This document shows, piece by piece, positions 892-14,087 of a stretch of DNA of 40,651 nt. The notes beneath the pieces were generated by a model. That model saw nothing but the letters and a program-made list of their open reading frames with translations. It was not told the DNA's origin and made no database searches. The DNA lies in the NCBI RefSeq assembly GCF_900113045.1, contig NZ_FONY01000034.1:21243-61893 (forward strand), written 5' to 3'. This stretch comes from Thermoflexibacter ruber (GTDB lineage Bacteria; Bacteroidota; Bacteroidia; Cytophagales; Thermoflexibacteraceae). Positions within the stretch are counted from its first letter, which is position 1, and the number at the start of each line of letters is the position of its first letter. Position numbers and translations under genes: made by a program.

Positions 892-1461
892 ATGTTACAG
901 ACTTCTCGCTTTCTTACAACCCATATTGAAGCCCTTATATTCTGTTCATCGACGCCGATTAAAATTGAAGAAATTAGGCTATGTTTATCAGAACTATTGG
1001 ATACAGAAGTACCTAACGAGCATATAGAGGCAGGTATTCATGAGCTTATTAGCAAATATCAAAGCGAAGATTTTGCATTTCAAGTATTTTACACAGGTGG
1101 CGGCTATCAGATGCTTACAAAACCTCAGTATCAGACTATCATAAGCCTACAAATCAAACAAAAGTCAAAAAAACGCCTCTCTAATGCGGCATTAGAAACT
1201 TTGGCAGTAATTGCATACAAACAGCCTATCAGCAAAAACGAAATAGAGCAAATTAGAGGAGTAGGGTGTGATTATGCAATTCAGAAGCTATTAGAAAAAG
1301 AACTTATCGAAATCAAAGGGAAGTCAGAAGCCATCGGCAGACCCCTCCTATACGGCACAAGTGCCAAACTAATGGATTATTTGGGAATCAATGACCTCAA
1401 AGAACTACCTACACCCAAAGACTTTAGTAGTGATGCAAGTGAGATAGGCAATCAGCAGTAA
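892..1461 (+). CDS. scpB: Segregation and condensation protein B
   Basis: 189 residues, the normal length for ScpB. It opens with HIEALIFCSSTPIKIEEI, the first helix-turn-helix of the family (LEALLFASSEPLS-like), and continues with LSNAALETLAVIAYKQPISK and EIEQIRGVGCDYAIQKLLEK, the hallmark second winged helix (A-L-E-T-L-A-[VI]-I-A-Y-[KR]-Q-P-[IV]-[ST]-[KR]-x-E-[IV]-E-x-I-R-G). ScpB dimers bind ScpA and the SMC head domains to form the bacterial condensin. scpA is not in the window. The ATG at 892 is the only reasonable start and has no Shine-Dalgarno. The pseudouridine synthase gene follows after 59 bases on the same strand, an association of scpB and rluB seen in many bacteria, so the two are probably co-transcribed. 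Confidence 0.95.
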   Translation: MLQTSRFLTTHIEALIFCSSTPIKIEEIRLCLSELLDTEVPNEHIEAGIHELISKYQSEDFAFQVFYTGGGYQMLTKPQYQTIISLQIKQKSKKRLSNAALETLAVIAYKQPISKNEIEQIRGVGCDYAIQKLLEKELIEIKGKSEAIGRPLLYGTSAKLMDYLGINDLKELPTPKDFSSDASEIGNQQ

Positions 1462-1520
1462 AATAAATCAGCAGGCGGGTAACATCCCCTCACAATTTAG
1501 GTTTAAAGATAAAACAAAAC

Positions 1521-4561: not shown

Positions 4562-5134
4562 TCAGTTCTCAATCAATGAAGCAGTTAGCTCATTGAGTTT
4601 TTTGACCTTTGTTTCAAAATCTCCTTTCAAACTATTTCTAAACTGCTGCAAATTGTCCAACAATTCTTCTATTTCTTCTGGTAAAGCCTCTTCCAAAATT
4701 TCTCTGAATCGCTTGGCAAAAGTAGGCGACTTCCCATTGGTCGAGATAGCAATTTTCAAATCTCCTTTGGTAACAATGCTCCCCAAATAAAAATCGCACA
4801 AATCAGGCGTATCTGCCACATTGACAACAAGATTGCGTCTTTTTGCTTCCTGCCAAATTTGGTAGTTGAGTAGCTTGTCTTCTGTGGCTACTATCAATGC
4901 CTGAAACCCCTCCAAATCTGAATTTTCAAATTTTCTTTTCTTAATTTTTAAGGAGTATTCTCCTTGATATTCAAGGATTTCCTCTTTGATTTCTGGCGCA
5001 ATCAAAGTAACTTTAGCATTGGGGCTGGACTTGAACATAAACGACACTTTTTCTAAGGCTACATTCCCGCCTCCCACTACCAAAATTGGTACTTTGTCTA
5101 ATTTTAAAAATATAGGATATAATAAATTGCTCAT
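4562..5134 (-). CDS. Precorrin-2 dehydrogenase / sirohydrochlorin ferrochelatase (Met8/CysG-N type)
   Basis: 190 residues from the ATG at 5134 (MSNLLYPIFLKL); an in-frame TTG seven codons earlier is less likely. The N-terminus holds the NAD-binding motif VPILVVGGGNVALEK, and the middle holds VVNVADTPDLCDFYLGSIVTKGDLKIAISTNGKSPTFAKRFRE, the signature of CysG N-terminal / Met8p enzymes that oxidise precorrin-2 and insert Fe2+ to give siroheme. The methyltransferase half of CysG is absent and is supplied by the separate cobA gene at 5764-6522, so the two together rebuild CysG. It lies between an unknown membrane protein (49 bases upstream) and DUF2490 (coupled). Its product siroheme is the cofactor of the reductase encoded upstream in the same direction. 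Confidence 0.92.
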   Translation of the reverse strand: MSNLLYPIFLKLDKVPILVVGGGNVALEKVSFMFKSSPNAKVTLIAPEIKEEILEYQGEYSLKIKKRKFENSDLEGFQALIVATEDKLLNYQIWQEAKRRNLVVNVADTPDLCDFYLGSIVTKGDLKIAISTNGKSPTFAKRFREILEEALPEEIEELLDNLQQFRNSLKGDFETKVKKLNELTASLIEN

Positions 5135-5183
5135 ATTTTTATTTTTGGAGTACAATTTTCTAAATCATACAGTTGAAATTATT

Positions 5184-5708
5184 TTACCAAGGACCTGGAT
5201 ACCCGCCACTCAAATTTTTCATAAAAAAGCCATCTACCTTATAATTGCCCTGAGCATCAGTTTTAAGGTCTAAGACAATGTTAATGAAGTAGTTGCTTTC
5301 TCCAAAGTAGCAATCTACTTTCACTCGCAACAAAGACGAACCGTCTATGATATTGGTACTTTCCTCCTTACCAAAAATCTTCCACCGATTAAGTTTGCCT
5401 TTTTCTGTTTGAAGTCTTTGGTAATTGGCTTGGTAGTCTGCCAAAGCATACTTAGCTTTATACGCTTTGGTCGTGAATTTTTCATAGGCTTCTTCTATTT
5501 TCCCTTCGGAAATCAATGTAAAATAAGGAGTTACCAATTTCTGATTGATTTCTTCCTCAAAAGCCACTGTTTTTTGATAGCTCTGGTATAGTCCAAAAAT
5601 TGCTACTGCCAAGCCAAGCAAAATGAGCAACCCATAGCCCTTATAAATACCTAAAACTAATAACAAAATACCTACGATAATGATAAGTACAATTTGGATA
5701 GTGGACAT
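5184..5708 (-). CDS. Unknown membrane-anchored protein in the siroheme operon
   Basis: 174 residues, not recognised. Residues about 5-24 (IQIVLIIIVGILLLVLGIY) and 27-45 (LLILLGLAVAIFGLY) are two closely spaced hydrophobic helices, probably a hairpin anchor. The rest is soluble: a helical segment with PYFTLISEGKIEEAYEKF and TTKAYKAKYALADYQANYQ, then beta-rich stretches (LLRVKVDCYFGESNYFINIVLDL and YKVDGFFMKNL) ending in GGYPGPW. This helix-then-sheet order recalls small NTF2-like/DUF4019-type domains, but I do not claim membership. The gene is packed between cobA (55 bases) and precorrin-2 dehydrogenase (49 bases) on the same strand, so it is likely transcribed with siroheme synthesis. Confidence 0.75.
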   Translation of the reverse strand: MSTIQIVLIIIVGILLLVLGIYKGYGLLILLGLAVAIFGLYQSYQKTVAFEEEINQKLVTPYFTLISEGKIEEAYEKFTTKAYKAKYALADYQANYQRLQTEKGKLNRWKIFGKEESTNIIDGSSLLRVKVDCYFGESNYFINIVLDLKTDAQGNYKVDGFFMKNLSGGYPGPW

Positions 5709-5763: not shown

Positions 5764-6522
5764 TTATAATTTTGCCAACTCCACTACTGCCTTTCTTTGC
5801 TTTACAAAAAACTCCACAGACTCTCCTATCACAATGATAGCAGGTGCGCCAATTTCTTCCTGCTTTGCTAAACTCACCAAGTCTTGCACTCGCCCTGCTA
5901 CTATTTTCTCATCGGGCAAAGTACCATTCTGCACTATGACCGCAGGAAGGTCGCCTTTGGCATGGTCTTGATAGACCTGTACTATTTTTTCTAATTTGTG
6001 TAACCCCATTAATATTATCACGGTGTCATTTGATTTTACTACGTTATTTATGTCTTCGTTCAATTCGTTGTCGGTAGTAGTAGCAGTCATTACCCTGAAA
6101 CCTCTGCTGACATTGCGTTGGGTAAGAGGAATTTGTAACTGAGAAGGAATTGCAGTGGCTGAGGAAAGTCCTGGTATCACTTCCACAGGAATTCCAAAAC
6201 TTTCTGCTGCCTCTATCTCCTCGCTTGCCCTACCAAACACAAAAGGGTCGCCGCCTTTGAGCCTTACCACATGACCGTATTGGAAGGCATGAGAAATAAT
6301 TAACTGATTGATTTCATCTTGTTTAAAAGATTGATAACCAGCACGTTTCCCTACAAAAAGTTTTACAGCTCTTTGTGGGGCATAAATGAGCAGTTCTTCG
6401 CTAATCAAGGCATCATACAACACTACATCTGCCTCTGCAATGGCTTTTAATCCTTTGACTGTGATTAAATCTGGGTCGCCAGGACCCGCACCTACTAAGG
6501 TTAATTTTGGAGATACTTTCAT
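5764..6522 (-). CDS. cobA: Uroporphyrinogen-III C-methyltransferase
   Basis: 252 residues, standard for the single-domain SUMT enzyme. It uses SAM to methylate uroporphyrinogen III at C2 and C7, giving precorrin-2. Motifs present: LVGAGPGDPDLITVKGLKA (SAM-site glycine loop, residues 9-27), DVVLYDALIS, RLKGGDPFVFGRASEEIEA and VIPGLSSATAIPSQLQIPLT. It is downstream of the reductase gene on the same strand, but separated by a 180-base gap with strong repeated palindromes (see 6567-6597 and 6646-6673), so it may have its own control. Start is ATG at 6522. Confidence 0.95.
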   Translation of the reverse strand: MKVSPKLTLVGAGPGDPDLITVKGLKAIAEADVVLYDALISEELLIYAPQRAVKLFVGKRAGYQSFKQDEINQLIISHAFQYGHVVRLKGGDPFVFGRASEEIEAAESFGIPVEVIPGLSSATAIPSQLQIPLTQRNVSRGFRVMTATTTDNELNEDINNVVKSNDTVIILMGLHKLEKIVQVYQDHAKGDLPAVIVQNGTLPDEKIVAGRVQDLVSLAKQEEIGAPAIIVIGESVEFFVKQRKAVVELAKL

Positions 6523-6702: not shown

Positions 6703-8823
6703 CTAACTCAAAACTGAATTTCTATATCCCTTTGCTTTGAGCAAAAACTCTTTGGCTTTTCTTAAATAATTACTTACAAATGAATACATTGGTACTTGCT
6801 CTGCTACTTGCAAGGCAAGCTCAGCAAAAGAACTTCCCAAGTCAATTTTCCCTGTCTGTATAAATTCTCTATCAAATCCATCAATGATACTTTGGTGAGA
6901 ATTTGTTTTAGCTTCTATGCTGATAAGCAACGCTTTAGCAGTGTAAATCATGGCATTGTAAGTATGGTAAGCGGCATCTGCCAACTGTCCCGCATCGAGG
7001 GCAAGCTCAGCAGTATCTATTTTTTCTTCTGTTTCTACGAACAAAGTGGAAATCAGGTCAATGATGACCCCTGCACACTCGCCTATCCCTACTGCTTTTT
7101 GGTAAGAATCCTCATTCCCCCAATCTATCAACTCCTCCTCTGCCACATTGGAAGTATCTGCAAAAGGAGCCAAAAGCGTAAAGAAATATTTTTTCCCTTG
7201 ACGTTGGTAATAGTCGTTATATAACTCATTTTCCAATTTATTTGCCTGATAATCATTGAGTAAAGTACGCAAAGCATCAGGGGTTCTGCGGCTCAAAACT
7301 TTCAAGGTTTTTTCTGCAAACTGCCCTTGTCCGTTGGAAAGTACGCCACCACCTAAGACTACTTGGAAGGCAGGCGCAACCGCTTTCCCAATGTTCATTG
7401 ACATTCCTTGAAAACCAATATTGGCAATGACATGCTGACCGCAAGCATTCATGCAACCACTGATTTTAATGCTAAGTTGGCGATTAGTAGCAAATTGAGG
7501 GTATTCTTTGACCAAAATTTCCTCCAAAACTTCTGCCAAACCCATACTACTTGCCACCCCCAAGTTACAAGTTACCGTACCGGGGCAGGTAGTTACGTCA
7601 AAAGTAGTTTCAAAGCCCACATTTGCTAAGCCGATTTCATCTAAGTAGTTGAAAATAAAAGGCAAGTTTGCTTCTGGAACAAAGCGTAAAAGCAGGTTTT
7701 GGCTTGCCGTAATCCTCATATCATCGCCTGTATAGATGTCAGCAATATGGGCAATTTTGCGAGCCAAAGCAGTGCTAATGTTCCCTTGTGTGATTTTTAT
7801 GCCTACTGCATAGTAGCCTGTTTGCTTTTGGCGAAAAGTATTGGTGGTTTTCCAAAGGGAATATTTGGCTTGCTTGTTTGCAGCTATATGCTCGGTACGA
7901 ATAGCAATTTCTGATAAAGTATTAAGAAGATATTTTTCTTCATTTTCCGAGTTGGAAACTCGGACTACTTGATTTAGCAAAGACTTTTGTTCTTTTTCTA
8001 CTAATCTGAGAAATTCCTCTTGCCCTAACTCTTTGATTAAGAACTTCAAACGCGCTTGCATGCGCTTGTTTCTTTCTCCATATCTATCAAAAACCCTTAA
8101 AGCGGCTTCGGTAAAAGGAATGATTTTTTCTTCTTCTAAAAACTCAAAAGCAGTAAAGGCATGAACAGGTTGTTGCCCTAAGCCACCGCCTACTAAAACT
8201 TTAAAGCCTTTGATTTTCTGACCATTGCGAATCTGAATTTTAGGAATGAAACCAAAGTCGTGCATAAAAGTAAAAGCAGAATCTACTTCGCTTGAGGAGA
8301 AGGCAATTTTAATTTTGCGCCCCATATCCCCACAGATAGGGTTTCTTAAAAAGTATTCAAACATTTTTTGAGCATAAGGCGAAACATCAAAAGGCTCGTA
8401 ATAGTCAATGCCTGCAAAAGCAGAAGCCGTAATATTGCGGACTGTATTGCCACAAGCCTCCCTGATGGTGATTTCATCTTGCTCTAATTCTGCCCAAAGC
8501 TGGGGGGTAACATCTAAGCTAACATAGTGAATTTGAATATCTTGCCTTGTAGTTAAGTGTAAAATTCCGTTGGAGTAGGTATCCGCTACATCAGAAACTC
8601 TGAATAGTTTTTGAGAAGTAATTTTCCCTTGTGGGAATTTAATGCGAATCATTTGCACGCCCGGCTGTCTTTGACCGTAAATGCCTCTAACCAGACGCAG
8701 ACTGCGAAACTTGTCCTCATCTATTTTGCCTTCTCTGTAAAGTCTGATTTGCTTTTCTAATTTGATGATGTCCTGCTCTACTACAGGGTTTTCCAATTCT
8801 AATTCTGTTCTAAAACTTTGCAT
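6703..8823 (-). CDS. Siroheme [4Fe-4S] sulfite reductase (nitrite/sulfite reductase family) with a C-terminal HEPN-like extension
   Basis: 706 residues. Two ferredoxin-like plus siroheme-binding halves are visible; residues 41-70 hold the RGIYGQRQPGVQMIRIKFPQG segment. The cluster and siroheme ligands are Cys413 and Cys419 (TTCPGTVTCNLG) and Cys457 and Cys461 (SGCMNACGQH), all present. Residues about 588-700 are an added all-helical region with AAYHTYNAMIYTAKALLIS and a C-terminal KEFLLKAKG helix, resembling HEPN domains and found on reductases of this type in other Bacteroidota. Sequence alone does not separate assimilatory sulfite from nitrite reductase. The upstream SAM-I riboswitch and poly-Cys leader, and the downstream siroheme genes, favour sulfite reduction to sulfide for cysteine synthesis. 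The long 5' region (8824-9059) separates it from its leader peptide. Confidence 0.9.
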   Translation of the reverse strand: MQSFRTELELENPVVEQDIIKLEKQIRLYREGKIDEDKFRSLRLVRGIYGQRQPGVQMIRIKFPQGKITSQKLFRVSDVADTYSNGILHLTTRQDIQIHYVSLDVTPQLWAELEQDEITIREACGNTVRNITASAFAGIDYYEPFDVSPYAQKMFEYFLRNPICGDMGRKIKIAFSSSEVDSAFTFMHDFGFIPKIQIRNGQKIKGFKVLVGGGLGQQPVHAFTAFEFLEEEKIIPFTEAALRVFDRYGERNKRMQARLKFLIKELGQEEFLRLVEKEQKSLLNQVVRVSNSENEEKYLLNTLSEIAIRTEHIAANKQAKYSLWKTTNTFRQKQTGYYAVGIKITQGNISTALARKIAHIADIYTGDDMRITASQNLLLRFVPEANLPFIFNYLDEIGLANVGFETTFDVTTCPGTVTCNLGVASSMGLAEVLEEILVKEYPQFATNRQLSIKISGCMNACGQHVIANIGFQGMSMNIGKAVAPAFQVVLGGGVLSNGQGQFAEKTLKVLSRRTPDALRTLLNDYQANKLENELYNDYYQRQGKKYFFTLLAPFADTSNVAEEELIDWGNEDSYQKAVGIGECAGVIIDLISTLFVETEEKIDTAELALDAGQLADAAYHTYNAMIYTAKALLISIEAKTNSHQSIIDGFDREFIQTGKIDLGSSFAELALQVAEQVPMYSFVSNYLRKAKEFLLKAKGYRNSVLS

Positions 8824-8895
8824 ATAGTTAAGTTTAAAGTTATTCCTTTATTTCTGTTTGGTATGGTTTGAAATAGTTTGATAGCTAAATAGTTT

Positions 8896-9059
8896 TTGCT
8901 TATTGTTAATTGTTAATTGCTCATTGATAAGATAATGAGATTTTGGGGCAGGAAAACTGCCTTTGCGGGTGAGGTATTCTGTAGCTAAGGCTATTTAAGC
9001 AATAGGGAAAACCAATGCCTAATAGCACTTTTTACAAAACCCAAACACAATGAGGAATT
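8896..9059 (-). promoter_or_regulatory. Region between the poly-Cys leader and the reductase: candidate attenuator structures
   Basis: On the minus-strand RNA this region holds a long imperfect hairpin (outer stem GCTATT / AATAGC, 8990-9026) and a small perfect one (GGCAG / CTGCC, 8947-8961). The segment TTAACAATAAGCAA (8909-8896) can pair with the end of the Cys run, TTGCTGTTGTTAA (9072-9060), over 13 pairs with one bulged A and one G-U. None is followed by a T-run, so if this is an attenuator it would act on translation, Rho access or mRNA stability rather than as an intrinsic terminator. The pairing is my own manual reading. Confidence 0.35.
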
Positions 9060-9188
9060 TTAACAACAGCAACAACAACAGCAAGCAACATTCATCACGG
9101 CAGATGAAGCGAATAGAATAGAAGAAAAATTACCCGAAGAGAGGGTTTTGAGATTTGAATGTTGTGAGAAAAACTGTTTTGTCTTCAT
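9060..9188 (-). CDS. Poly-cysteine leader peptide of the sulfite reductase operon
   Basis: 42 codons, ATG at 9188 to TAA at 9060. The peptide starts MKTKQFFSQH and ends VMNVACCCCCCC: seven consecutive Cys codons (TGC TGT TGT TGT TGC TGT TGT) directly before the stop. It contains no recognisable domain. The start lies 12 bases after the last base of the SAM-I aptamer, and the initiation context AAATCACCATGAA is shared with the second leader at 13754-13861, although the two peptides otherwise differ. A ribosome short of Cys-tRNA would stall in this run, as in the poly-Cys leader ORFs known to attenuate sulfur genes in mycobacteria. Function as a cysteine sensor for the downstream reductase is inferred from position, the Cys run and its independent recurrence. 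Confidence 0.8.
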   Translation of the reverse strand: MKTKQFFSQHSNLKTLSSGNFSSILFASSAVMNVACCCCCCC

Positions 9189-9200
9189 GGTGATTTTTAA

Positions 9201-9320
9201 AATTTATATTTCCCAAAAATTATTTTAGGTCAGGAATTGGCACCGTTCTCTTTGCAAGTATGTCAGAGAGGTTGCCAGAAGGTCATAGAGCCTGTTCTCT
9301 CGCTTCATTCTTTATAAATT
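9201..9320 (-). promoter_or_regulatory. SAM-I (S-box) riboswitch upstream of the sulfite reductase leader
   Basis: On the minus strand the RNA shows the S-box core in order: P1 5' strand AATTTATA (9320-9313), GAGAGAACAGGCTCTATGACC, CTGGCAACC, a P3 stem closed by CTCT/AGAG, then GGTGCCAATTCCTGACC (P4, with GGU/ACC pairing) and the P1 3' strand TATAAATT (9208-9201), fully complementary to the first. GGCAACC and GGTGC(C/T)AATTCC are the most conserved SAM-I blocks. No intrinsic terminator follows; the P1 3' strand lies just before the start codon of the poly-Cys ORF, so SAM binding may control access to that start, or later transcription. Confidence 0.92.
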
Positions 9321-9390
9321 TGCCTTTGTAATCAGCAACCCAATGTAGATGGTTGGGAGATTGTTACAATAACAAATGAATTATTGACTG

Positions 9391-9421
9391 CAAATATAGT
9401 CAGTTTTAAATAAATTACAAA
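9391..9421 (-). promoter_or_regulatory. Promoter of the sulfite reductase unit
   Basis: Minus strand: TTTG (9421-9418), 19 bases, TATATTTG (9398-9391). This is an exact match to the Bacteroidota -33/-7 consensus (TTTG-N19-TAnnTTTG). It lies about 70 bases upstream of the SAM-I aptamer and has the same layout as the promoter at 14057-14087. The remaining stretch, 9422-9494, only leads up to the end of the YeiH-type gene. Confidence 0.85.
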
Positions 9422-9494
9422 TATTTTAGTGATTTTTTAAAAAATTTGTAATGAGTTTTTTTGTGCTTAAACCAAGCAAAACATTCCTTGCTTG

Positions 9495-10748
9495 CTACCC
9501 GAACAGTAAATACGCTAATACCAGAGTAATCAGTATGTTAAAAGTTTGTGCCAATAGAAAAGCATAAAGCGGTTTTGTGCTTTCGGAATTAAAAATATCG
9601 GCAAATTTGGTTTCTAAACCAATGCAAGTGAAGGCAAGGACAAACCAAAAAGTTTGAATGTTTTTTAAGCTATCCTTTACCTTATTGATAAGAATTGGAT
9701 TTAAGAAAAAGGAGAATAAAAGAGAAGCTAACATAAATCCCAAGACGAACTTGGGGAAACGCTCCCAAATTACGCTCCAAGTAGGCTTCAAGGTTTTCCT
9801 ACTTTCATCTATCTTTTTGGTATATGTCCAATACACACTGATAGCGAAAGCAGCAAGCCCAAGCAGTACATTTTGAGAAAACTTGACTATGGTGCTGACT
9901 TTCAAGGCAGTTTCACCTACTAAACTTCCAGAAGCTACCACTGCGCCCGTCGTGTCAATGCTTCCACCGAGCCATGCACCCGTAACTTCCTGAGATAGCC
10001 CCAAATAATTAGCCAGATAGGGCATGAAAATCATCATAGGGATAGCAGTAATCAATACTAAAGAAATCACATAAGAGAGTTTTTTGGTGTTGCCTTTGAT
10101 AGCTCCTGCCGTAGCGATTGCGGCAGAAACGCCGCAAATAGATACCGCGCTGGCTATCATCATGGTCATTTCATCATCTACTTTGAGTTTTTTGCAAAGC
10201 CAATAGGCTACATACCAGACACTTAGCACCACTACCAAAGCCTGCACCAAACCCAAAGCACCTGCTTTGAGAATATCTGAAAAAATCACCGTTGTTCCTA
10301 AAAGCACCAAGCCAATTTTTACAAAAAACTCAGCAGAAAGTGCATGGGTGAACCATTTTGGAAGTTTAGCGGCGTTTCCAATAAGTAAGCCAATACTCAA
10401 ACTAAAAATGACAGCTTCTAAATTCAAGTCTTTGACTTGGCTATTCCCTGCAATAATCATAGCAAGTATGGTTAATAAATAAACTATGGGGAATGCTAAA
10501 AATATGTTTTTCAGAGGTTTGTTCATCAACCATGCTCCTACCATAAAGATACTTAAGGTATATAAAAATTGGAAAGTAATCAAAAGTAAATTCTGAGCAG
10601 CAAGCACCTTTTCAAAAAGGTCTTTGCTGTCTTTCCAAGAAAAAATAGGCACAGGCAGGGTAAAAGCAAAAATAGAAAGACAAATGATAATGAAACCCAG
10701 AGAAACAATCACCCAATCTTCTTGTAGTATAATTCGTTTTTTTGACAT
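9495..10748 (-). CDS. YeiH-family (UPF0324) putative sulfate/sulfite exporter
   Basis: 417 residues with about ten membrane segments spread over the whole length. Family markers: VIFSLSIGLLIGNAAKLP, FFVKIGLVLLGTTVIF, the SICGVSAAIATAGAIKG loop and GAWLGGSIDTTGAVVASGSL with its repeated small residues. The family is annotated as a putative sulfate exporter and in several bacteria is linked to taurine, sulfite or cysteine metabolism; the substrate is not proven. Here it follows the TonB receptor gene by 148 bases on the same strand and so falls under the upstream riboswitch/poly-Cys region unless it has its own promoter. TAACTTTG in the gap (minus strand) is a possible weak -7 box. Its position between two sulfur-responsive regions supports a sulfur-anion role. 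Confidence 0.85.
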   Translation of the reverse strand: MSKKRIILQEDWVIVSLGFIIICLSIFAFTLPVPIFSWKDSKDLFEKVLAAQNLLLITFQFLYTLSIFMVGAWLMNKPLKNIFLAFPIVYLLTILAMIIAGNSQVKDLNLEAVIFSLSIGLLIGNAAKLPKWFTHALSAEFFVKIGLVLLGTTVIFSDILKAGALGLVQALVVVLSVWYVAYWLCKKLKVDDEMTMMIASAVSICGVSAAIATAGAIKGNTKKLSYVISLVLITAIPMMIFMPYLANYLGLSQEVTGAWLGGSIDTTGAVVASGSLVGETALKVSTIVKFSQNVLLGLAAFAISVYWTYTKKIDESRKTLKPTWSVIWERFPKFVLGFMLASLLFSFFLNPILINKVKDSLKNIQTFWFVLAFTCIGLETKFADIFNSESTKPLYAFLLAQTFNILITLVLAYLLFG

Positions 10749-10896: not shown

Positions 10897-13464
10897 TTAA
10901 AACACATATCTCAAAGTAATCCCATACGTTCTTGGGTCGCCCAAGACTGCCCCATAATGCCCTGCGTTCCCTGCCGCAGGGAGGAGTTGCTCAAAATAGT
11001 TTTGATTAAAGAGGTTGCGTCCCCACAAGAGCATGGAAATACCATTAGAAGCGCGAAAACCTATTCGTACATTGACCAGCGCATAGCCATCTATGTTCAG
11101 AAATTTAGATGGAGAAGGGCTTGATGAAAAAGAAGAACGATAAAAGTTGTCTAAAGCAAGAAAAAACCTGCCTTTTAAACCTAAAAAGTTTCCTCTGGTG
11201 GACACTTCGCCTCCCAAAGAACCCGCCCATTTGGAAATCCCAGGTAAATCTCCTCCTGAGATGTCTTTGAATGCAGATGCACCTCCTGTTTCTTCCAAAG
11301 GTACAGGGGCATTTTTGAAGGAAACATATTTCCCATCAGTGTAAGCAAGCGCGCCATTCAAGGAAAAGTAATTGCTTACTCTAATGCTTCCGTCCAATTC
11401 TATGCCTATGACCCTTACTCTTTCTGCATTAGAAAGATAGCCCCTGTTTACCCCTACCTCGGCGGTTTGGACTTGGGTTTGGAAATCTTTGATGTCTGTA
11501 TTATGAAAGACTACATTGAAAGTTGATTGTTTGCTGGGTTCTGTTTTTATACCAAACTCAAAATGAGTTACATACTCAGGTTTTATCCTTGCCAAGTCAG
11601 TCAGGACTTCTCCGCTTGCGGTTGGCAAACCACCCAAGTTTACCCCCACAGGCTTGTAACTATTAGAAACAGTTGCAAAAGTGTGAAATCCTTTAAAAGG
11701 TTTGTAAGCCAAAGTAAGTTGCCCTGAAAAATTGTTTTCTTCTACATTTACTTTAAAGGCTTGGTTGGTATAAACAGCATTCTTCAAGGCAAGCAAGGCG
11801 GGGTCAGAAGTTTGCAAACCTCCATAGGTTTCTCGCTTGTAATCCACGTCCTTTTTATCGTAGTTAAAACGAATACCACCTAAAACGTGTAATTTGTCCG
11901 TAATTGCATAGTCAATTTGTCCAAAAGCCGCCGCTCCTAATGTATTTAGTGTAGAAGTTGTTTTGATGCCCAAACCCTCGAACAACCCTGGTGTACGCCA
12001 TAAAGCAGAAGTAGAACTTTGAGAGAATCTCCACTGTGCCGCACCTGCTTCTTCTATGTGGGCGGGTTTACTTACCAAGTTTTGTCCAATGAAAAATACA
12101 CCGACTACCCCACTCAGTTTGGGAGAAAAATCCCCAGCATAGCGAATCTCCTGCGACCAGTTGGTATGCCTTGAAGTTGCTTGGGATTTGGAAAGTACAG
12201 GAAGCCCCGTAAAATCACGGTCATTCATAGGGTCCCAATCCCAAAAACGCCAAGCAGAAGTAGCGGTGAGTTTACCATTCCCTACTTTTGCATCTATATT
12301 CACCGACACCCCTCCAAGGTCATTGCCTGAACGCCAAGGAGAATCGGTGTCTATAATTCGGTCAAAAGGATTGGTACTTGGCAGTTTGTAACCCAAATCA
12401 GCAATGATGCTGTTAAATTGGCGGTAAGCGGGACGTTGGGTAGTTACTACTCCTGCAATAACTTGGGCATAGCCGCTTGGTCTTTGTCTTGAATAATCTC
12501 CTATGAATGTGATATTTAGATTTTCAGTGGGTTTGAATAATAGCTGTCCCCTGAAGCCTAAATTATTTAGCGTATTTTCAGATTTATCAGTTCTCACATT
12601 GTAGAGTGTGCCATCTCTATGCGTACCTGAAAAAGAGAAACGACCTGCAACATGCTTGCTTAATGCTCCTGTGATAGAGGCTTTTGACTGAATAAAGCCA
12701 TAATTTCCATAACTGACTTCAAACGCCCCCCCTGTTTCAAAACTTGGTGCGCGGGTAGTAATATTAAAAGCACCTGCTGTAGTATTTTTCCCAAAAAGTG
12801 TGCCTTGTGGTCCCCTAAGCACTTCTATTTGCTCTATGTCAATAAAGTCAAGCGTAGCGGCAGCAGGGCGAGCATAATACACCCCGTCCACATAAAAGCC
12901 TACGCCAGGGTCTATGCCATCATTAGTCAAACCAAACGTAGAGCCTAAGCCTCTGATATTCAAAGTAGTATTTCGTGGATTGGAAGAGTAAAGCTGTACG
13001 GTAGGCACTAACTCCTTCAAGCGGTTTACGTTGAATGCACCCGCGTCTTCTACTGTAAATCCACGAATAACCGACACAGGGAGAGGAATTTCCTGCACGG
13101 ATTCTTGTCGCCTTCTCGAGGTAACAACTACCTCTGCCAGTTCATTGACATTTTCCTCTAATTTGATTTCTACACTGCTTTCGCTAATAACAAGTTCTTT
13201 TTTCAAATAACCCACATAAGAAACTATCACCGTAAAAGGAAGTTTCTGCCCCGTAATTAAGGCGAACTCTCCGTTGGCATCAGTCGTCGCTCCGTTGGTA
13301 GTGCCTTTGATAGCGATAGTTACACCTACTAAGTTTTCATTGGTGCGAGCATCAACTACTCTACCTGAAACTGTTGCATTAATCACGGGTTTGTCTTGTG
13401 CTGATAAAAATAATGGGAAAAAAACTGCCCCTATGTAAAGAATCGATTTGAAAATATTTTTCAT
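10897..13464 (-). CDS. TonB-dependent outer-membrane receptor, probably for a sulfur compound
   Basis: 855 residues. Signal peptide 1-22 (MKNIFKSILYIGAVFFPLFL, cleaved after SAQ or nearby). Residues 28-105 are a CarboxypepD_reg-like domain (VSGRVVDARTNENLVGVTI, GATTDANGEF). The plug domain spans about 112-240 with EVVVTSRRRQESVQEIPLPV, LNIRGLG and QIEVLRGPQGTLFGKNTTAG. The remainder is a 22-strand-type barrel ending in GDPRTYGITLRYVF with a terminal Phe. No SusD partner gene is present, so it resembles siderophore or small-molecule receptors rather than a glycan system. The ligand is unknown; control by a SAM-I riboswitch and poly-Cys leader upstream suggests a sulfur source such as an organosulfur compound. 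Confidence 0.92.
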   Translation of the reverse strand: MKNIFKSILYIGAVFFPLFLSAQDKPVINATVSGRVVDARTNENLVGVTIAIKGTTNGATTDANGEFALITGQKLPFTVIVSYVGYLKKELVISESSVEIKLEENVNELAEVVVTSRRRQESVQEIPLPVSVIRGFTVEDAGAFNVNRLKELVPTVQLYSSNPRNTTLNIRGLGSTFGLTNDGIDPGVGFYVDGVYYARPAAATLDFIDIEQIEVLRGPQGTLFGKNTTAGAFNITTRAPSFETGGAFEVSYGNYGFIQSKASITGALSKHVAGRFSFSGTHRDGTLYNVRTDKSENTLNNLGFRGQLLFKPTENLNITFIGDYSRQRPSGYAQVIAGVVTTQRPAYRQFNSIIADLGYKLPSTNPFDRIIDTDSPWRSGNDLGGVSVNIDAKVGNGKLTATSAWRFWDWDPMNDRDFTGLPVLSKSQATSRHTNWSQEIRYAGDFSPKLSGVVGVFFIGQNLVSKPAHIEEAGAAQWRFSQSSTSALWRTPGLFEGLGIKTTSTLNTLGAAAFGQIDYAITDKLHVLGGIRFNYDKKDVDYKRETYGGLQTSDPALLALKNAVYTNQAFKVNVEENNFSGQLTLAYKPFKGFHTFATVSNSYKPVGVNLGGLPTASGEVLTDLARIKPEYVTHFEFGIKTEPSKQSTFNVVFHNTDIKDFQTQVQTAEVGVNRGYLSNAERVRVIGIELDGSIRVSNYFSLNGALAYTDGKYVSFKNAPVPLEETGGASAFKDISGGDLPGISKWAGSLGGEVSTRGNFLGLKGRFFLALDNFYRSSFSSSPSPSKFLNIDGYALVNVRIGFRASNGISMLLWGRNLFNQNYFEQLLPAAGNAGHYGAVLGDPRTYGITLRYVF

Positions 13465-13571
13465 TTTTGTTTGTTTAGTAGTTTATTAAATTTTCTAAAT
13501 AAGTGTGCAGATTAAACGTATCCTTGTTTTAGGCAAAGACACTGTTTATCAATTATTTATTAGCTTAAAGG

Positions 13572-13753: not shown

Positions 13754-13861
13754 TTAGCAACAACAACAGCAACACCTCATCGCAGAAGGATTTAACAAGT
13801 GATTATTTTTTGGAAGTTCCAAAATACCCACTAAGGGCAAAAAAGATGTTTTTGAGTTCAT
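13754..13861 (-). CDS. Poly-cysteine leader peptide of the TonB receptor unit
   Basis: 36 codons, ATG at 13861 to TAA at 13754, 35 residues. The peptide begins MNSKTSFLPLVG and ends SAMRCCCCCC: six consecutive Cys codons (TGT TGC TGT TGT TGT TGC) directly before the stop. The start is 12 bases after the second SAM-I aptamer, in the same context (AAATCACCATGAA) as the leader at 9060-9188. Outside the start and the Cys run the two peptides are unrelated, so the Cys run is the selected part. Probable cis-acting sensor of cysteinyl-tRNA supply; the peptide itself need have no function. Confidence 0.8.
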   Translation of the reverse strand: MNSKTSFLPLVGILELPKNNHLLNPSAMRCCCCCC

Positions 13862-13872
13862 GGTGATTTAAA

Positions 13873-13981
13873 AATTTATATTTCCCAAAATGATTTTTAG
13901 GTCAGGAATTGGCACCTTTCTCTTGTGAGGGGTTGCCAGAAGGTCATAGAGCCTGTTCTCTCACTTCGTTCTTTATAAATT
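13873..13981 (-). promoter_or_regulatory. SAM-I (S-box) riboswitch upstream of the TonB receptor
   Basis: Second copy of the aptamer. Minus strand: P1 AATTTATA (13981-13974) pairs with TATAAATT (13880-13873). Between them are GTGAGAGAACAGGCTCTATG, ACCTTCTGGCAACC, a P3 stem (CCTCAC.. / ..), and AGGTGCCAATTCCTGACC. The core blocks are identical to the copy at 9201-9320 while P3 and the linker to P1 differ, showing divergence under constraint. The aptamer is again followed by a poly-Cys ORF, not by an intrinsic terminator. Confidence 0.92.
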
Positions 13982-14056: not shown

Positions 14057-14087
14057 CAAATGTAGGTATATTTGAATAAATTGCAAA
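14057..14087 (-). promoter_or_regulatory. Promoter of the TonB receptor / YeiH unit
   Basis: Minus strand: TTTG (14087-14084), 19 bases, TACATTTG (14064-14057), an exact Bacteroidota -33/-7 match. The bases between it and the aptamer (CAATTCATTTGTT and TTACAAAGGCAAATTTATAAAG) are shared with the first copy, so the whole control region is duplicated. The stretch 14088-14159 holds nothing further that I can identify. Confidence 0.85.

Follow-up and report, generated by a model that had tools for sequence, protein, structure and literature searches.

SAM-I riboswitches with near all-A/U P1 stems followed by cysteine-rich leader ORFs in Thermoflexibacter ruber and other Bacteroidota

Introduction

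Upstream of the sulfite reductase gene of Thermoflexibacter ruber, a SAM-I riboswitch aptamer is followed within a few nucleotides by a short ORF with consecutive Cys codons just before its stop, which raises the question of whether riboswitch and ORF act as one regulatory device. A preliminary description of this locus had proposed serial control by the SAM aptamer and by cysteine supply. The available text of PMC1262725 describes poly-Cys leaders in Actinobacteria, in front of cys operons of Mycobacterium and Propionibacterium and of cbs in Bifidobacterium. For Bacteroidota, parts of two further reports mention a suspected leader-peptide attenuation in Flavobacterium psychrophilum (PMC9723704) and, for Bacteroides thetaiotaomicron, sORFs that resemble leader peptides (PMC7366714).

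Results

Aptamers and Leader ORFs in the Window

The window is the whole stretch of 40,651 nt of the T. ruber genome analyzed here. Its first locus comprises the following features.

9391–9421, minus strand: promoter-like sequence TTTG-N19-TATATTTG of the Bacteroidota sigma-A type, 70 nt 5′ of the aptamer
9201–9320, minus strand: SAM-I (S-box) riboswitch aptamer, its P1 made up of A/U pairs only (RF00162, 74.5 bits)
9189–9200, minus strand: spacer of 12 nt, which together with the P1 3′ strand would form the initiation region of a leader without Shine-Dalgarno (SD) sequence
9060–9188, minus strand: leader ORF of 42 codons (MKTKQFF...NVACCCCCCC, then stop), 12 nt past the aptamer
9063–9083, minus strand: seven Cys codons (TGC TGT TGT TGT TGC TGT TGT), followed by the stop
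8824–9059, minus strand: post-leader region, the presumed site of termination or readthrough
6703–8823, minus strand: sulfite reductase (NIR_SIR, Pfam)
5764–6522, minus strand: tetrapyrrole methylase (PF00590)
4562–5155, minus strand: siroheme synthase dehydrogenase part (PF13241 and PF14824)

Rfam confirmed the complete S-box aptamer claimed for 9201–9320(−), with a match over model positions 1–108 (E = 8.2e-16; 74.5 bits against a gathering score of 44.4). The 42-codon ORF that had been placed 12 bases past the aptamer, with seven Cys codons and a stop, is present in the sequence as described, and its architecture is conserved in related loci; the unit does reach the siroheme reductase, since the NIR_SIR gene begins 236 nt past the leader stop. 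The PF00590 gene (5764–6522(−)) is presumably SUMT, an enzyme of siroheme synthesis. A 174-residue protein encoded at 5184–5708(−), within the sulfite reductase unit, had no Pfam match. Residues 598–660 of the sulfite reductase gave a C-terminal match to HEPN (PF05168, E = 1.2e-5, above cut-off), which looks like an unusual fusion.

A second aptamer-leader pair, absent from the preliminary description, is located further upstream.

14057–14087, minus strand: promoter-like sequence TTTG-N19-TACATTTG, 75 nt 5′ of the second aptamer
13873–13981, minus strand: second SAM-I aptamer with an all-A/U P1 (RF00162, 73.4 bits, model positions 1–108, complete)
13754–13861, minus strand: second leader ORF of 35 codons (MNSKTSF...AMRCCCCCC, then stop), 11 nt past the aptamer
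13757–13774, minus strand: six Cys codons, followed by the stop
10897–13464, minus strand: TonB-dependent receptor (Pfam), 3′ of the second leader
9495–10748, minus strand: PF03601 membrane protein (Pfam), between the TonB gene and the first aptamer

We take the PF03601 gene (9495–10748(−)) to be YeiH-like, a member of a putative sulfate exporter family. Eight promoter-like sites of the TTTG-N19-TAnnTTTG type were found in the window, as compared to 2.71 expected, and two of the eight are those located 70 and 75 nt 5′ of the two aptamers; TAnnTTTG is described in part of PMC9723704 as a flavobacterial sigma-A box. No intrinsic terminator-like site was found in window positions 8700–9520, and a weak site at 13518–13542 was the sole one at the second locus.

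Genome-wide, T. ruber has five SAM-I matches, four of them with a Cys leader; these leaders precede genes for sulfite reductase, a TonB protein, O-acetylhomoserine sulfhydrylase (MetY) and PAPS/APS reductase (CysH), the last two named from sequence and not by family search. The fifth match, which has the weakest score, is without a Cys leader. The pattern TGYTGYTGYTGYTRR occurred six times in the genome, representing the four SAM-I leaders and two sequences that are not leader-like. Within the family, SAM-I matches were found in 10 of 13 genomes, and 12 of the 14 matches outside the T. ruber genome were followed by a Cys leader.

Survey of SAM-I Matches and P1 Classes

A total of 287 SAM-I matches in Bacteroidota were compiled, comprising 177 from the T. 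ruber genome, its family, the phylum, and the order (of at least 113 order matches, 100 were taken, and phylum and order are represented by the matches listed), 70 named MetY loci, and 40 further phylum matches; five of the 287 duplicate another locus. A leader was classified as Cys-rich if it contained at least three Cys within 10 residues and if its ORF started 4–16 nt past the aptamer. One leader (L020), for which Rfam ended the aptamer early, was entered by hand.

The aptamers could be divided into two classes by their P1 stem. Type A stems (TTTATA...TATAAA) have a mean of 0.26 G-C pairs out of 8 and a duplex energy of −3.3 kcal/mol, while type B stems (mostly CTTATC...GATAAG and variants) have a mean of 2.39 G-C pairs out of 8 and a duplex energy of −7.7 kcal/mol. 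Under this division, which was drawn after the first loci had been seen, a Cys-rich leader was present at 111 of 169 type A and 0 of 118 type B matches (identified by script, plus L020). The figures were 107/164 and 0/118 after removal of duplicate loci, and 58/99 and 0/118 after removal of the named MetY set. Type B copies are canonical SAM-I riboswitches (RF00162), of the same aptamer family and score range as type A; they differ in having a G-C-containing P1 and no Cys leader against it, whereas the near all-A/U P1 of type A lies against a start codon. The preliminary description had treated a single locus; among the Bacteroidota matches surveyed, the pattern recurs across a sulfur regulon and is tied to a distinct P1 class.

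Of the 58 type A matches for which the script reported no Cys leader, two (L224 and L245) truly have one that was overlooked by the start-codon picker and stands outside the script counts. One type B match (L041) is followed within 240 nt by a (TGY)4 run that is well removed from P1; here a canonical-P1 SAM-I is located before MetY, and the ORF MLQKQYYHIAHNCFTHMMCCCCCCMPFGA, which ends in a stop and has a cluster like that of the type A leaders, lies 147–236 nt past the aptamer.

The named MetY loci, which entered the survey later, represent the best 80 of 588 relatives of a query built from leader-bearing loci. SAM-I was found at 70 of these 80, the other 10 falling below the gathering score, and all 70 are type A, a proportion that should not be read as unbiased given the origin of the query and the selection of its top-ranked relatives. 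An ORF start 4–14 nt past the aptamer was present at 67 of the 70; 53 were Cys-rich by script, to which L224 and L245 are to be added.

Cys and Met Codons in the Leaders

Among 142 unique leaders, 106 were Cys-rich, with a median of 40 codons. In these 106, the last Cys was the final residue in 68 and was located no more than two residues from the end in 98; the body of the leader varies among loci while the Cys cluster persists. Of 71 loci with a (TGY)4 run, 70 have it in frame with the leader; the exception (L224) is a mis-picked start. In the first 177 matches, runs of at least four Cys were present in 37 of 79 leaders near a type A P1; 100 rounds of dinucleotide shuffling gave a mean of 0.01 and a maximum of 1. 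Cys is encoded by a mixture of 387 TGT and 231 TGC codons. The frame test, the shuffles, and the mixed codon usage rule out an origin of the runs by chance or as a low-complexity repeat. Two other tests were set aside: an indel-modulo-3 frame test, since whole-ORF comparison pushes net gaps to multiples of three, and a test of reading-frame length, since the +1 frame often meets the TGA inside ATGA.

Met is also enriched, accounting for 26.7% of residues other than Cys within the clusters, 14.6% of the four residues before them, and 1.1% of the leader body; Met codons appear to belong to the Cys cluster, and their scarcity in the body may come partly from avoidance of internal starts. In a phylogeny with 67 MetY proteins, which leaves out three loci (L234, L256, and L270) that failed the ORF filter, the Cys-leader label (52 present, 15 absent) changes eight times, compared to 13.7 times for shuffled labels, and nine of the 15 absences belong to one Cyclobacteriaceae clade.

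The preliminary description had made conservation of the Cys run in relatives a touchstone. The run is kept in general; exceptions are Algoriphagus (0/5) and parts of two families of the order (f2 and f4), where the near ORF is kept without a Cys cluster (examples are L068, L120, L137, L175, and L200).

A poly-Cys run alone is not diagnostic, since 26 of 29 loci with such a run outside the T. ruber genome lack an in-frame ATG. Two of the others (L090 and L100) have an ATG ORF of <65 codons, and one (L107, genome G033, 1432–1518(+)) is leader-like. The L107 ORF encodes 28 residues (MYNKRNTFNFYKSRMHAMMRMCCCCCCC, followed by the stop) and is located 52 nt 5′ of a phytanoyl-CoA dioxygenase-like gene (assigned by eye); the script found no SAM-I-like core motif upstream, and the ORF would represent a Cys/Met leader without riboswitch.

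Several leaders depart from the common form. Eight in order genus g9 (L144, L146, L148, L150, L180, L186, L189, and L196) have GTG starts after CAAGTTGCCGTG or a near variant. A common QHGCC motif with scattered Cys was seen in L144, L189, L196, L173, and L208, which precede CysH or TonB genes, and L148 and L186 have five terminal Cys and an APC-like transporter gene downstream.

Genes Downstream of the Riboswitches

Sulfur genes are found downstream of the SAM-I matches, i.e., sulfite reductase in the window and MetY, CysH, MetX, and MetH elsewhere. Gene labels were assigned by motif and by eye, with Pfam used for the window genes. Among type A matches, Cys leaders precede MetY in 85/118 cases, CysH in 8/9, sulfite reductase (SiR) in 2/2, TonB in 3/3, an ATP-grasp gene in 4/4, an APC-like transporter in 4/6, another transporter in 1/1, cysteine desulfurase in 1/2, a MetZ/CGS-like gene in 1/4, and unassigned genes in 2/4; none was found before MetX (0/13) or MetH (0/3). 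In these counts, all 70 named loci are entered as MetY, including three (L225, L270, and L293) where the aptamer lies about 1.1 kb 5′ of MetY with space for another gene between, and L210, which is the same locus as L225, is entered as unassigned. Grouped by function, Cys leaders precede 95 of 129 MetY, CysH, and SiR genes, as compared to 0 of 16 MetX and MetH genes; in this sample, cysteine input would thus go with steps that make or use sulfide and not with methionine-only steps.

At one locus (L155, genome G466), metX (identified by motif) starts 9 nt past a type A P1 without any leader, which suggests that P1 may gate a main gene directly.

Leader Initiation and Post-Leader RNA

An SD-like 4-mer was found in one of 144 leaders, and the most common spacing between aptamer and start codon is 9 nt. 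At positions −14 to −12 from the leader start, where the P1 3′ strand (UAUAAA) lies, A accounts for 72–78% of nucleotides. A-rich upstream positions are initiation signals in Bacteroidota. Given the SD-less start, the A-rich P1 3′ strand, and the 9-nt spacing, closing of P1 by SAM would hide the leader start.

Relative to shuffles, the 80 nt past the leader are structured (mean z = −1.42, compared to −0.18 for the leader itself; n = 106); the controls are also below zero, at −0.71 for RNA downstream of type B aptamers (n = 83) and −0.55 within MetY (n = 70). Terminator-like sites occurred in 4 of 109 post-leader regions, compared to 0.9% in mononucleotide shuffles; neither this count nor the terminator search in the window reveals a universal intrinsic terminator. 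No common pairing partner of the Cys run was found in the post-leader RNA (mean z = −0.42). In the folds of L217, L218, and L234, the Cys codons are base-paired to a CAGCAACA- or CGCAACA-like sequence located further downstream, and GCAACA or CAGCAAC was present within 120 nt in 8 of 106 loci, compared to 3.9% in shuffles. Hairpins right past the leader stop were found in Pedobacter (five sequences) and Mucilaginibacter (seven sequences), with 5/15 and 1/6 predicted pairs, respectively, kept through double-sided changes; post-leader hairpins are genus-specific. In Mucilaginibacter and Pedobacter, they directly follow the stop at L235, L256, L265, L277, L284, L294, L240, L280, L281, L286, L287, and L288.

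The excess of C over G per nt was 0.120 in the leader, 0.095 in the UTR, and 0.083 at the start of MetY; since this excess is small relative to the MetY gene itself, a clear rut signature is absent. The median gap between the leader stop and the main start is 140 nt, and a gene for Rho is present in the genome.

Discussion

Regulatory Model and Alternatives

In these loci, about 9 nt separate a near all-A/U P1 from the start codon of a leader with Cys and Met codons at its end, which is mostly located 5′ of genes for sulfide production or use. The serial arrangement of SAM aptamer and Cys leader put forward in the preliminary description has strong comparative support, both in its association with P1 class (111/169 vs. 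0/118) and in the reading frame of the Cys runs (70/71). The arrangement probably represents a two-input RNA switch, in which SAM-I gates an SD-less leader and stalling at Cys/Met codons decides readthrough; the anatomy is observed, while SAM binding, stalling, and termination are deduced from sequence. The P1 3′ strand would double as the initiation signal of the leader, so that SAM binding, by closing P1, would prevent initiation of the leader with no distinct expression platform involved. With low SAM, the leader would be translated. With charged Cys-tRNA (and perhaps Met-tRNA), the ribosome would then reach the stop and leave, and transcription would end in the post-leader region, most likely via Rho; with uncharged tRNA, the ribosome would stall at the Cys codons and block Rho or the post-leader hairpins, and the operon would be expressed. 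The net logic would be ON with SAM and Cys both low. Given the few terminator-like sites, the lack of a common partner of the Cys run, and the presence of Rho, we infer that Rho termination gated by a stalled ribosome is the likeliest route. Against the model stand the type A matches with no Cys-rich leader by script (58/169, of which L224 and L245 do have one), among them groups such as Algoriphagus (0/5), the metX start directly past P1 at L155, the negative z-scores of the controls, the frequency of terminator-like sites above that in shuffles, and the slight C-richness. The fuller version of this reading, i.e., a platform-less SAM-I whose A/U-only P1 strand starts an SD-less leader that is itself a Cys/Met attenuator, with the aptamer sensing SAM and the ribosome sensing amino-acid supply as a serial AND gate over the sulfide-assimilation regulon of Cytophagales and related groups (Sphingobacteriaceae and Saprospiraceae), we hold to have an even chance of being right.

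An unlikely alternative is attenuation of the trp type, in which Cys stalling would switch an antiterminator/intrinsic-terminator pair, with leader translation or transcription under separate control by the SAM aptamer. The loci do have a short ORF with a codon cluster for the amino acid of the pathway between promoter-like site and operon; the structured post-leader regions (mean z = −1.42), the Pedobacter and Mucilaginibacter hairpins with their double-sided changes, and the Cys-codon pairing of L217, L218, and L234 along with the GCAACA/CAGCAAC stretches are consistent with such a switch. However, stem-plus-U-tract sites are few (4/109, with none in 8700–9520 and one weak site at 13518–13542), the hairpins vary among genera, pairing with the Cys run is weak, and a mutually exclusive antiterminator and U-tract terminator was not found in these leaders.

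Opposite polarity is improbable. Full translation of the leader would here free the RNA of Rho, with stalling lowering expression, or the leader would feed termination-reinitiation, as might be expected from M. tuberculosis ppe2, where, according to part of PMC11260477, uORF translation is needed for PPE2 expression. Yet sulfide-making genes would then be repressed exactly at Cys shortage, and the gap between leader stop and main start (median 140 nt) is long, unlike that of reinitiation pairs.

Marginally less probable still is a role of the Cys/Met-rich nascent or free peptide not as a readout of tRNA charging but as a sensor or product that binds a metal such as Cu(I) or reacts with sulfide or oxidants. 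Cys and Met residues bind soft metals, and both are enriched near the C-terminus; however, the downstream genes mostly serve sulfur assimilation, the spacing within the cluster differs among leaders, and residues clustered at the very end would not yet have left the ribosome tunnel when the stop is reached. That the ORF is accidental, with the SAM aptamer alone regulating and the Cys codons meaningless, is hardly credible in spite of the near ORFs without Cys in some groups and the metX and metH copies without a Cys cluster, as it is already contradicted by the reading frame, the shuffles, the TGT/TGC mixture (387/231), and the ties to P1 class and gene class.

Relation to Known Systems

The Actinobacteria leaders resemble those described here in being short ORFs with a Cys run near the stop and sulfur genes downstream, and, as here, no conserved terminator hairpin is described and Rho is proposed; the available text mentions no upstream aptamer (PMC1262725). 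They differ from the leaders reported here, which belong to Bacteroidota, start about 9 nt past a SAM-I, and include Met in the cluster. Like the mycobacterial poly-Cys uORFs, the window leader has its poly-Cys run near the stop. By the title of Canestrari's 2020 report, the mycobacterial ORFs are said to be leaderless; the start of the window leader lies about 200 nt past the promoter-like site, behind the aptamer.

In the Mbox-uORF (pe20) of M. tuberculosis, an aptamer directly controls translation of a small uORF and termination is Rho-dependent (PMC12810186, in part), as proposed for the leaders described here; the ligand there is magnesium, the SD is sequestered by an anti-SD, the peptide is conserved, and the portion available mentions no regulatory codon run. 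The leaders described here share the position of the aptamer immediately 5′ of the uORF start (mode 9 nt, n = 144); unlike the Mbox-uORF, they have an SD-less start, a body that is not conserved, and Cys/Met codons, and SD sequestration by an anti-SD is not apparent among the 144 leaders, one of which has an SD-like 4-mer. Riboswitch and translated uORF also share a leader in the metE and ppe2 B12 riboswitches of M. tuberculosis, one of which serves a methionine gene; PPE2 is translated by termination-reinitiation, and the text available mentions no amino-acid-specific codon run (PMC11260477). In Rhodobacterales, uORFC-8-2, located 5′ of cysS, has tandem Cys codons and a proposed ribosome-mediated attenuation, as well as differing in having two Cys codons and an intrinsic terminator, with no riboswitch described in the accessible part of the source (PMC8632094).

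Poly-Cys leaders and riboswitch-uORF pairs are thus known separately. A report of a SAM-I riboswitch paired with a Cys leader was not found among the matches listed in the full-text literature, which covers few subscription journals, and the pair is undescribed in the available parts of PMC9373788 (on SAM-II) and PMC2965389; within that coverage, the view that this coupling is new in Bacteroidota was not contradicted.

Implications

If the proposed switch holds true, leader-peptide attenuation and metabolite sensing by a riboswitch, both textbook RNA controls, would be joined in series as one device, and a riboswitch would gate a start codon without Shine-Dalgarno pairing. In the sample surveyed, an A/U-only P1 with a Cys leader provides a marker, readable from sequence, by which sulfide-assimilation genes can be told apart from methionine-only ones, and cysteine sensing in Bacteroidota becomes testable.
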